Made by a program: the position numbers and the translations under genes. 21,740 nt of DNA, taken from positions 1 to 21,740 of the IMG/VR virus record IMGVR_UViG_3300009128_000731, one strand, 5' to 3'. The notes beneath the pieces are model-generated. The model had not been told where the DNA came from. It worked only from the letters and a program-made list of their open reading frames with translations, and searched no databases. Position 1 is the first letter of the stretch. Each line of letters begins with the position of its first letter. This DNA comes from a virus. Shown here one piece after another: positions 14,547 to 21,466 of the stretch.

Positions 14547-16115
14547 TCACTCCACCACGATCGTCAGGGGCATCAGCAGCGATCCAGGCTGTGTCCCGTC
14601 GCTGCTGGCCTTCGCCCAAATGTTCAGGTACCTGTGCGGGCCGACACCGTCCGTCTCCACCACCACCGAGCCAGCCGCGTTGTAGGCTGCGCTGGATGCA
14701 CCCCCAGCCGTGGCCACCACCGCCGAGAACGTCCAGCTGGCTGCGTCATCGTCCAGCAGGTTCTGAGCGTCAGCCAGCACCAGCCGCAGCCGCGACTGAT
14801 CCACCGTGGGGGCATCGCTGCCCAGGTCGTAGTCCGCCACCAGCTGCTGCTCAGCGTTGCCCGTATCGAACTGCTGGGCGGGGTACAGGGGTGCGGCCGT
14901 GTTCCAAGACTGGCCACCAGCCGCGTGGTCCATGTATCCCACGTCCCCCACGTTCCCGTCCTGGGCGTTCGTGGTGTGGGACGTGATTCCGACCTTGAAG
15001 TTGTTCGCGCTGGCGAGGTGGTTTACCACCTGCTTCGTCCGCGTCCAACCGGACGGAAGCGTGCCCACCACCCCGTGGGCGTAGTAACACTTCACCGAAC
15101 CGGCCGAGTCGATCAGGATGCGGAACCAGATCCCACCGTTCCGCTGGCCTGCGGTCGCGTTCGTCCAGGTGCTGGCGCCCCCTGTGTTCGTGCGGATCTT
15201 GTCCGCGCCGTTCCACCCCACACCGATGTATGCATACGTGTTGTTCACGTCGTCGTCGGTGACCATCAGGGCCGTGGTGTTGTAGTTCGCGTCCCCGTCC
15301 CCGGAGATGAACGCTACCCACTCCTGCGTATCGTACGCTCTGGGGAACACGTCGTAGGCAAACGGAGCCGTGTGCGTGCCTCCATTCGTCCAGTCCGTGG
15401 CCGCGTTGGCGTGGTCGATGTTCCACTCATCCGCGGTGGTGGTGTTGTAGTCGGAGCTATCCAGCGATCCGCTGTTCAGCCACGTACGACTGCCGCCAGG
15501 GCTTGCAATGGCGTCACCCACCGCCTCTGGAAACGTGGTGCGCCGCATCAGCCGCACGTACTGACGCCCGTTCACCGCAGCCACCTCGTAGGTGTCAGCC
15601 ACGGCGGACACGTCGCTGCCAGTGATCTCGGCCACGCGGCCGGTGGCCACACCCGCAGGGAGCCCGGTGAAGTTGGTCCCATCGAGGGTGGGAGAACTTC
15701 CGGTGGTCACGTTCTGGTCAATGAACGTGTGATCGGACCCGTCGCTGCTGCGGTGGGTGTTGTTCAGGGCCACGTCCGCATGGTCCGAACCGTCGCCCGT
15801 GCTGTGCGTGGTGTTCGTGGCCACGTCCGCATGGTCAGATCCATCACCCGCGCGGTGAGCGTCGTTCAGCACCACGTTCGCGTGGCTCGTGCCGTCGCTG
15901 GCCGCGTGAGCGGTGGCGTCCGTGTCGATCCCCGCGCGAGCTTCGCCTGCGTACGTGGTGCCGCTGCGGGTGAACACTTCGCCGTCAGACACCTGTCCAG
16001 CCGTCAGCGTGGTGGGTCCGCCCGTCTCCCGCAGCCCCTCGGTCACGTCCACGATGTCATCGCGGTCCGTGTCGTAGACCGTCTCGCGCATCACGTCCTG
16101 GTACTTCTCAGGCAC
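14547..16115 (-). CDS. Fibre-like structural protein with 17-residue repeats and jelly-roll domain
   Basis: This 522-residue protein starts at GTG 16115 with GGGGGTGA upstream. Residues 1-68 form an N-terminal region (TGGPTTLTAGQVSDGEVF). Residues 69-136 are four 17-residue repeats with a His-x-x-x-[GS]-D-G-[ST]-x-H core, as in THSTGDGSDHADVALNN. Residues about 205-395 look like a concanavalin/LamG-type jelly roll (EWVAFISGDGDANYN, GGIWFRILIDSAGSVKCYYA, FKVGITSHT). The C-terminal 120 residues are beta-rich. Such His and Asp repeats in phage fibres usually form trimeric stalks. Jelly rolls often bind sugars. It lies between capsid and connector genes, so it may sit on the head or neck rather than on the tail tip. 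Confidence 0.65.
   Translation of the reverse strand: MPEKYQDVMRETVYDTDRDDIVDVTEGLRETGGPTTLTAGQVSDGEVFTRSGTTYAGEARAGIDTDATAHAASDGTSHANVVLNDAHRAGDGSDHADVATNTTHSTGDGSDHADVALNNTHRSSDGSDHTFIDQNVTTGSSPTLDGTNFTGLPAGVATGRVAEITGSDVSAVADTYEVAAVNGRQYVRLMRRTTFPEAVGDAIASPGGSRTWLNSGSLDSSDYNTTTADEWNIDHANAATDWTNGGTHTAPFAYDVFPRAYDTQEWVAFISGDGDANYNTTALMVTDDDVNNTYAYIGVGWNGADKIRTNTGGASTWTNATAGQRNGGIWFRILIDSAGSVKCYYAHGVVGTLPSGWTRTKQVVNHLASANNFKVGITSHTTNAQDGNVGDVGYMDHAAGGQSWNTAAPLYPAQQFDTGNAEQQLVADYDLGSDAPTVDQSRLRLVLADAQNLLDDDAASWTFSAVVATAGGASSAAYNAAGSVVVETDGVGPHRYLNIWAKASSDGTQPGSLLMPLTIVVE
15708..15911 (-). repeat. Four tandem 51-base (17-residue) repeats
   Basis: The four copies begin AHAASDGTSHANVVLND, AHRAGDGSDHADVATNT, THSTGDGSDHADVALNN and THRSSDGSDHTFIDQNV. 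Each is exactly 17 residues. The middle two copies are the closest to each other. Conserved positions are His 2, Asp 6, Gly 7 and His 10. Confidence 0.8.
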
Positions 16116-20674: not shown

Positions 20675-20791
20675 TCAGCCCAGCAGATCCTGCTGCACGG
20701 GTCCAGTGCCATCCCACTGGTCGGCCATGGCCGCAGCGATGCCGGTGAAAAACCGCGAGCGCTCGCGCCAGCGGTCGGGTCTAGGAGGCAT
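20675..20791 (-). CDS. Possible small gene (38 aa)
   Basis: The reading frame from ATG 20791 to TGA 20675 reads MPPRPDRWRERSRFFTGIAA followed by AMADQWDGTGPVQQDLLG. It combines a basic N-terminus, a short amphipathic helix and an acidic end, and its codons mostly end in G or C. No proper ribosome site precedes it (GGGTG about 6 bases upstream at best). It lies 40 bases after the dipeptide-repeat gene. The same frame stays open upstream through the repeat array as an Ala-Thr/Pro-rich reading, which I take as chance. It may be a real short gene or merely an open frame. Confidence 0.35.
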   Translation of the reverse strand: MPPRPDRWRERSRFFTGIAAAMADQWDGTGPVQQDLLG

Positions 20792-20831: not shown

Positions 20832-21173
20832 TTAACCGTAGCCGTCGCCGTAGCCGGAGCCGGAGCCGGAGCCGTCGCCGTGGCCGTGGCCGTCGCCGTA
20901 GCCGTAGCCGGAGCCGTCGCCGTCGCCGTCGCCGTCGCCGTAGCCATCGCCGGAGCCGGAGCCGGAGCCGTAGCCGTCGCCGGAGCCGGAGCCGTAGCCG
21001 GAGCCGGAGCCGGAGCCGTCGCCGTGGCCGGAGCCGTAGCCGTAGCCGTCGCCGTCGCCGTCGCCGTAGCCGTGGCCGTCGCCGGAGCCGGAGCCGGAGC
21101 CGTAGCCGTAGCCGGAGCCGCTCCACGCATCCACGTCGGGGTGCCCGTCAGGAACGAGCGTCACGCGTTCCAC
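20832..21173 (-). CDS. X-Gly dipeptide-repeat protein (Tyr/Asp/Ser/His-Gly), unknown function
   Basis: This 113-residue protein begins at GTG 21173, inside the last codons of the previous gene (the stop at 21161-21163 is overlapped), with GAGGTG five bases upstream. Sixteen to seventeen ordinary residues (VERVTLVPDGHPDVDAW) are followed by 48 X-Gly pairs to the stop, where X is Tyr, Asp, Ser or His. There is no signal peptide or membrane segment. I recall similar Tyr/Asp/Ser-Gly proteins near DUF6948-like genes in phages and phage-rich contigs, with no known function. The composition, Gly every second residue and many Tyr, Asp and His, suggests a flexible, sticky or metal-binding chain, or a phase-separating one. 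That is inference. Confidence 0.75.
   Translation of the reverse strand: MERVTLVPDGHPDVDAWSGSGYGYGSGSGSGDGHGYGDGDGDGYGYGSGHGDGSGSGSGYGSGSGDGYGSGSGSGDGYGDGDGDGDGSGYGYGDGHGHGDGSGSGSGYGDGYG
20835..21122 (-). repeat. 48-unit hexanucleotide array
   Basis: On the plus strand each unit is GCC followed by G and one of TA, TC, GA or TG. On the coding strand the second codon is GGC in all units except the last one (GGT). X codons are only TAC, GAC, TCC and CAC. The order is not periodic at the unit level but shows a larger duplication (see findings). Confidence 0.9.
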
Positions 21174-21466
21174 GGTGACACCTCGGCGATCCTCTTGTCC
21201 GCGGCCTCGGCGGTCGGGATGATCTCGCAGGCGTCGAGTACGGCGATCCGCTCCACCGCCGGGGCGATGCGGGTGTAATTGTCGCCCGACTTCGCCGGAC
21301 CGGTCAGCGACAGGTCGGAAAGCGTCATCGCCCCCCGCCAGCGCCAGATCCGCCGGGAGTCGCTGAGCACGACCGTCCGCCCCTCGACGGCCTCGACCGT
21401 CCCGTAGTGCACCCCCGCGTCCCGCGCTCGGATGATGGCCTTGCGGCCGATGATGTTCTCGTACAT
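21161..21466 (-). CDS. Small conserved phage-type protein, DUF6948-like
   Basis: This 101-residue protein starts at ATG 21466 (MYENIIGRKAIIRARDAGVH), with GGAGG five bases upstream. A longer frame to 21604 would read through a hairpin and is unlikely. It has the beta-rich pattern GTVEAVEGRTVVLSDSRRIW, then RGAMTLSDLSLTG and RIAVLDACEIIPTAEAA, which I recognise as the family I remember as DUF6948, found in phages and mobile DNA. That recognition is from memory and not from a search. The function is unknown. The fold suggests a small SH3-like barrel. Translation of the X-Gly gene is coupled to it, so the two may act together. Confidence 0.75.
   Translation of the reverse strand: MYENIIGRKAIIRARDAGVHYGTVEAVEGRTVVLSDSRRIWRWRGAMTLSDLSLTGPAKSGDNYTRIAPAVERIAVLDACEIIPTAEAADKRIAEVSPWNA

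Follow-up and report, generated by a model that had tools for sequence, protein, structure and literature searches.

The array gene and its partner in the window

The window is the whole stretch of DNA that was analysed, a 21,740-base virus record; it is a metagenomic contig, so the exact unit number and order of the array described here carry an assembly risk. On its minus strand a DUF6948 gene lies directly upstream of a gene that encodes an array of X-Gly dipeptides. The features of the locus are the following.

20754..20767, minus strand: terminator-like stem-loop with a T-run, past the array gene; weak (1 found against 0.4 expected)
20832..21173, minus strand: array gene, 113 aa, MERVTLVPDGHPDVDAW followed by (XG)48 and the stop TAA; probable GTG start at 21173, set by the shared 13-nt overlap
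20835..21122, minus strand: X-Gly array of 48 units (X = 18 Ser, 14 Asp, 12 Tyr and 4 His)
20847..20990, minus strand: units 23-46, second copy of a higher-order duplication (self-alignment)
20991..21122, minus strand: units 1-22, first copy of that duplication (self-alignment)
21161..21173, minus strand: 13-nt overlap, the array start codon lying within the 3' end of the DUF6948 gene, at its C-terminal Trp codon
21161..21466, minus strand: DUF6948 gene (PF22253), 101 aa, with a predicted Sm/LSm-like fold (Pfam, AF2 model and fold matches)
21179..21184, minus strand: Shine-Dalgarno-like GAGGTG, 5 nt ahead of the GTG

The window array protein probably begins MERVTLVPDGHPDVDAW, because the GTG at 21173 and the GAGGTG upstream of it fit the overlap pattern shared by its relatives. 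In 84 of 117 loci the distance from the array start codon to the end of the DUF6948 stop is exactly 13 nt, Trp is conserved at the C-terminal DUF6948 codon where the two genes overlap, and a Shine-Dalgarno-like motif precedes 76 of the 117 array starts, against a fraction of 0.13 in control windows from the same genes. A promoter scan found none. Programmed frameshift fusion of the pair was considered and rejected, since the window overlap has no obvious slippery site and array starts are not confined to a single relative frame (-13, -16 and -17). The sole natural fusion, in which DUF6948 and array share one open frame, is at locus L014; it is in-frame and arose by insertion. At L014:5041-6030, part of the DUF6948 3' end is repeated behind the fused DUF6948 and 44-unit array, and another array of 44 units then follows in a frame of its own.

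The order of X over the 48 units is SSYYSSSDHYDDDYYSHDSSSYSSDYSSSDYDDDDSYYDHHDSSSYDY, and Tandem Repeats Finder (TRF) reports period 6, 47.5 copies and 86% matches. An earlier note on this DNA, made from the sequence alone, had placed 48 X-Gly units at 20835-21122, which is correct for the minus strand, and had described every X codon as TAC, GAC, TCC or CAC; this holds for 46 of the 48, the exceptions being AGC at unit 1 and GAT at unit 30. The full count is 17 TCC, 13 GAC, 12 TAC, 4 CAC, 1 AGC and 1 GAT, and it bears out the absence of TTC, TGC and AAC from this array. Glycine is encoded by GGC 47 times and by GGT once. The protein has a charge of -17, and its translation contains no GG pairs in the array, which alternates strictly between X and Gly. 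RTX calcium-binding repeats are nonapeptides of the form GGXGXDXUX, and the array was rejected as one of them because GG pairs are absent and there is no RTX family match. Pfam also gives a TrAA12 hit on the array, at 25.5 bits with a cutoff of 30.9, which was set aside as reflecting composition.

The array contains a 22-24 unit duplication that is real but modest (p about 0.004-0.04). In a local self-alignment, units 1-22 line up with units 23-46 at a score of 22, which was matched by 12 of 1000 permutations and by 4 of 1000 pair-preserving shuffles; among single offsets, 22 units (132 nt) fits best, with 58% identity and p of 0.03-0.04. The earlier note had transcribed the X blocks at units 5-22 and 27-46 exactly and had expected an off-diagonal at 130-145 bases; the offset of 132 nt falls in that range, at modest strength. 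Its proposal that the array grew by block duplication agrees with this self-alignment and with a pair of relatives, L050 and L084, which have identical DUF6948 genes and arrays that differ by a 27-unit block.

The upstream gene clearly belongs to DUF6948 (E 4e-23, 81.7 bits, cutoff 27), a Pfam entry that gives neither a function nor an array partner. Its AlphaFold2 model, built from a 41-sequence alignment, has a pLDDT of 95 and is a five-strand small barrel with helices. Compared with the PDB, the model best matches Sm/LSm proteins, with a Foldseek E of only about 2e-3 and a top VIA Z of 8.8 (rmsd 1.8 over 66 residues), and 36 chains reach a Z of at least 8; in viral structure space its top matches are other DUF6948 proteins. 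The Sm fold is a helix followed by a five-strand small barrel, and DUF6948 shows these elements in the predicted model only. Pfam returns DUF6948 alone, with no Sm, LSm or Hfq family match, and the PDB holds no sequence match at E up to 1. Since sequence-level matches to Sm families or solved structures are absent, the Sm/LSm-like fold is a prediction from one model. The protein has a net charge of about +1, which makes simple charge complementarity with the acidic array a weak proposition, and it carries conserved Arg and Trp residues.

The strand of the window that carries the array also has recognisable tape-measure and tail-lysozyme-like genes, and upstream in a near-identical contig (L002) there is a gene with a weak likeness to scaffold genes, its Pfam Phage_scaffold match staying below cutoff. 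The window pair therefore appears to sit in a structural region, between scaffold-like and structural genes. Elsewhere the recurrent neighbour families of the pair are Erf, RecE-like, Sak4, RecT/Bet, SSB, primase and DnaB, as raw recurrences; the apparent placement of the window pair among structural genes means that a role in recombination is not universal. The pair has no constant genomic location, much as an autonomous cassette would behave. Elsewhere in the window, a 51-base tandem repeat of 2.7 copies (15749-15885) lies in a 522-aa ORF (14547-16115, minus strand) with AxNxTHxxxDGSDHxxV-like repeats.

Distribution of the pair

Relatives were collected with DNA patterns and with searches that started from DUF6948, as tblastn with the array protein found no relatives because that protein is of low complexity. 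An alignment of every DUF6948 subfamily (A1) proved too heterogeneous for scanning the collections, so a narrower one (A2) was used. An X-Gly array lies within 700 nt downstream of DUF6948 in 75 of 80 viral contigs, a set biased toward the A2 subgroup from whose search it came, in 30 of 35 genome contigs and in 9 of 10 phage records. The viral and genome contigs together thus give an array close behind DUF6948 in 105 of 115 loci, and inspection by eye adds more. Six DUF6948 loci had been flagged as lacking an array despite available sequence, and five of them carry one on inspection: L171, with Phe/Ser/Asp-Gly units, L192, L197, L138 and the degenerate L167. Locus L184 is a true loss, in which the overlapping start codon has been lost as well. 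Approached from the other side, among 97 array-first loci with upstream sequence, 75 have DUF6948 and 15 have its subfamily B, so that 90 of 97 are partnered; subfamily B is homologous to DUF6948 (hhalign probability 97.4, E 1e-11).

Phages that are unrelated to one another carry the pair, as do contigs assigned by binning to many bacterial phyla and to one archaeon. The array and DUF6948 are a conserved, translationally overlapping two-gene phage module. The earlier note had suggested that the array is coupled to the DUF6948 gene, and the conserved pair with its fixed 13-nt overlap supports this; it had missed the Sm-like fold predicted for the partner, the conservation of the overlap and the hypervariability of arrays between otherwise identical phages. 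A divergent DUF6948 relative (VVLDRGFVYVG...WGTTKGLGEL...KW) stands before arrays; its copies are A3 members, mostly missed by the Pfam model (examples are L040:281-598 and L011:772-1029, both on the minus strand). Three loci (L031, L055 and L049) have two or more X-Gly arrays, and at L026 an array that lacks a DUF6948 partner lies behind an ORF of 405 aa, which on visual inspection looks like a von Willebrand A-type protein.

In most array proteins nothing follows the array. At gut-type loci the array continues in frame into a conserved domain of 150-160 aa (FAHG...WHHxLTGSCExGRxxFA...YGG), carried by L154, L155, L156, L157, L158, L159, L124, L132, L006, L037, L063, L071, L075 and L161. The domain has no match in Pfam, PHROG or NCBIfam; its AF2 model has a pLDDT of 93 and no convincing PDB fold match, the best having a Z of 6.1 over 67 residues, with weak dsRBD-like matches.

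Conserved composition and rapid turnover of the arrays

Across 3,342 units in 128 non-redundant arrays from DUF6948-first loci, X is Ser in 36%, Tyr in 30% and Asp in 22%, about 88% together, followed by Asn (3.8%), Thr (1.9%), Phe (1.8%), His (1.1%), Cys (0.6%) and Ala (0.3%); the array filter behind these figures demands mostly polar X and slightly inflates them. The earlier note had limited X to Tyr, Asp, Ser and His and had predicted that Phe, Cys and Asn would stay absent from homologues. Neither statement survives the comparison: the core is Ser/Tyr/Asp with His at only about 1%, and Asn, Phe, Cys and Thr all occur in relatives. Asn makes up 51% of X in one array, Phe wholly replaces Tyr in L171, and L003 uses Asn/Tyr/Asp with T-ending codons. 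The proposal of selection on the X residue does stand. With independent variation at bases 1 and 2, about 295 Ala codons (GCC/GCT) would be expected, yet only 8 occur, the shortage being alike in C-ending and T-ending arrays; and the residues one transition away from TAC, TCC and GAC (His, Cys, Phe, Pro, Asn and Gly) are all rare while the transversion-linked trio Ser/Tyr/Asp dominates; both observations argue that the residue mix is under selection. The array proteins as a whole are 50% Gly, with a median of 16% aromatic residues, 21% Ser/Thr/Asn and a median charge of -9, and are almost without Lys/Arg. Acidic residues (about 12%) are spread along the arrays, and the aromatic share is as conserved as the acidic one. 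In targets of diversity-generating retroelements, adenine mutagenesis gives the variable codons a broad range of residues; the arrays were rejected as such targets because about 88% of X is Ser/Tyr/Asp.

The order of the units behaves differently from their composition. The Pectobacterium phages Ymer and Amona show 0 mismatches in 2,960 flanking nt (1,810 upstream and 1,150 downstream), yet their arrays, of 30 and 27 clean units, are at least 12 unit edits apart. Other arrays within the Ymer genus have 22 to 40 units, and lengths overall run from 10 to 88; with the 27-unit difference between L050 and L084, this agrees with the earlier expectation that length varies between relatives. The window and L002 have an identical partner gene and arrays that part after unit 15, L002 ending inside its array. 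The third bases tell of homogenisation: in DUF6948-first loci, to which the statistic was restricted because the array-first pattern fixes third bases, the minority third base of Tyr/Asp codons stands at 2.3% against 31% expected from local codon usage, and the minority Gly codon at 5% against 57%. Between neighbouring units, X base 1 is different in 46% of cases and X base 2 in 51%, against 7% and 10% for the third bases, with Gly bases 1-2 invariant by construction, as Gly defines the units. Variable X bases beside nearly fixed third bases imply that the units are young and homogenised while the X residue mix is kept. The array is thus homogenised at the DNA level, and unit number and order turn over fast. 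In L003 and in arrays of AT-rich phages generally, Gly is GGC even beside T-ending X codons, so the Gly codon is independent of genome composition.

What the separately encoded chain may do

The explanation that we favour, though we regard it as evenly balanced between right and wrong, is that the phage module combines an Sm-like core with a (Ser/Tyr/Asp)-Gly chain that is selected for composition and free in order. The chain is probably disordered and would act through composition and multivalency, not through sequence, with aromatics (Tyr, replaceable by Phe) as stickers and Ser/Asp/Gly as spacers. By analogy, it may bind its Sm-like partner or cluster that partner on nucleic acid, much as if the Gly-rich tail of Hfq were made as a separate polypeptide, and the conserved Arg/Trp of DUF6948 could contact the chain aromatics. 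Slippage and annealing recombination between the 6-bp units would re-deal the array, and selection at the protein level would maintain the Ser/Tyr/Asp mix. We put forward only tentatively a more specific version, a widespread phage ribonucleoprotein module of the Sm-like protein and the separately translated hypervariable chain, in which the chain would organise phage nucleic acid or mRNA into condensates, with composition alone being selected and recombination re-dealing the units.

Each half of the pair resembles something known. Acinetobacter Hfq has an Sm core, a Gly-rich tail of GGFGGQ repeats and an acidic tip, and its repeat number matters (PMC11617691). The likeness lies in an Sm-type core, here a predicted one, with a Gly/aromatic repeat chain; unlike Hfq, the phage chain is usually a separate overlapping gene with a dipeptide unit built on Ser/Tyr/Asp, and by sequence DUF6948 falls outside the Hfq family. 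In composition the array also recalls the G/S-Y-G/S low-complexity domains of FUS/FET proteins, being Gly/Ser with recurring Tyr, and in a study of FUS the Tyr-rich domain is described as contacting arginines of a folded domain through Tyr-Arg cation-pi interactions (PMC5927716). The array differs in its strictly alternating Gly, its many Asp, its near lack of Gln/Arg and its phage origin, and phase separation by it is putative. At the DNA level the array resembles minisatellites (VNTRs) in unit-wise expansion and contraction, homogenised units and block duplication; it differs in varying mainly at X bases 1-2 and in keeping a three-residue core alphabet across divergent phages.

A related possibility, which we consider doubtful, is that the array is an autoinhibitory or recycling tail encoded separately, a nucleic-acid mimic competing for the DUF6948 surface. 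Acidic tails of Hfq or SSB compete for the nucleic-acid surface, and the acidity of the array proteins with their near lack of Lys/Arg fits such a part, as does the repeat tail with an acidic tip in A. baumannii Hfq (PMC11617691). However, the acid is distributed through the array instead of being gathered in a tip, the aromatic fraction is equally conserved, and nucleic-acid binding by DUF6948 is itself only putative.

It is improbable that the array is a passive spacer or solubility chain, for instance on the gut-phage C-terminal domain, for which flexibility alone would matter. The position of gut-type arrays before a conserved domain and the wide range of lengths would suit a spacer, but the usual array protein joins nothing, and a pure linker needs neither a constant aromatic share nor the exclusion of Ala. 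We think it quite improbable that the array serves as a surface kept variable by diversifying pressure, such as a decoy against a host sensor with DUF6948 as its carrier. Arrays do change fast between otherwise identical phages, and adjacent-unit variation at X (0.46-0.51) contrasts with that at synonymous sites (0.07-0.10); nevertheless, an X held to about three residues is a poor repertoire for evasion, and neither the array, DUF6948 nor the gut-type domain has a defence-related family match.

A repeat acting as DNA or RNA, as a recombination hotspot or structural element with an incidental open frame, would explain the homogenised third positions, the GGC kept beside T-ending X and the annealing recombinases that are often nearby. 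We hold it to be very improbable, since Ala is excluded whichever base ends the codons, the start codon and Shine-Dalgarno motif are conserved, the frame continues into the C-terminal domain, one array is fused to DUF6948, and L184 lost its array and the array start codon together. That the array differences are artefacts of short-read assembly is hardly credible: several contigs do end inside arrays (L002, L003) and the Ymer-genus phages were assembled from Illumina short reads with metaSPAdes (PMC11445585), but the Ymer and Amona arrays diverge from the first units after an identical start, with unique junction k-mers, and identical arrays recur in independent contigs.

In the literature searched no paper names DUF6948, an absence there that is not proof of absence overall, and strings of such Gly dipeptides appear there in three papers, none of them on phages. 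In that literature the pairing, the separate overlapping gene and the order-free hypervariability appear to lack a prior description, and beside the Pfam entry the predicted Sm/LSm-like fold and the partner gene would be new. The pair provides a clean set of natural, probably disordered sequences that keep their composition but not their order, with synonymous sites as an internal clock, so that what selection sees in a disordered chain becomes testable. If DUF6948 is Sm-like in function, a large phage branch would be added whose low-complexity partners are encoded separately. If the ribonucleoprotein or condensate reading is true, the phages that carry the pair would show, as an experiment of nature, how selection acts on a disordered protein whose sequence order is free.
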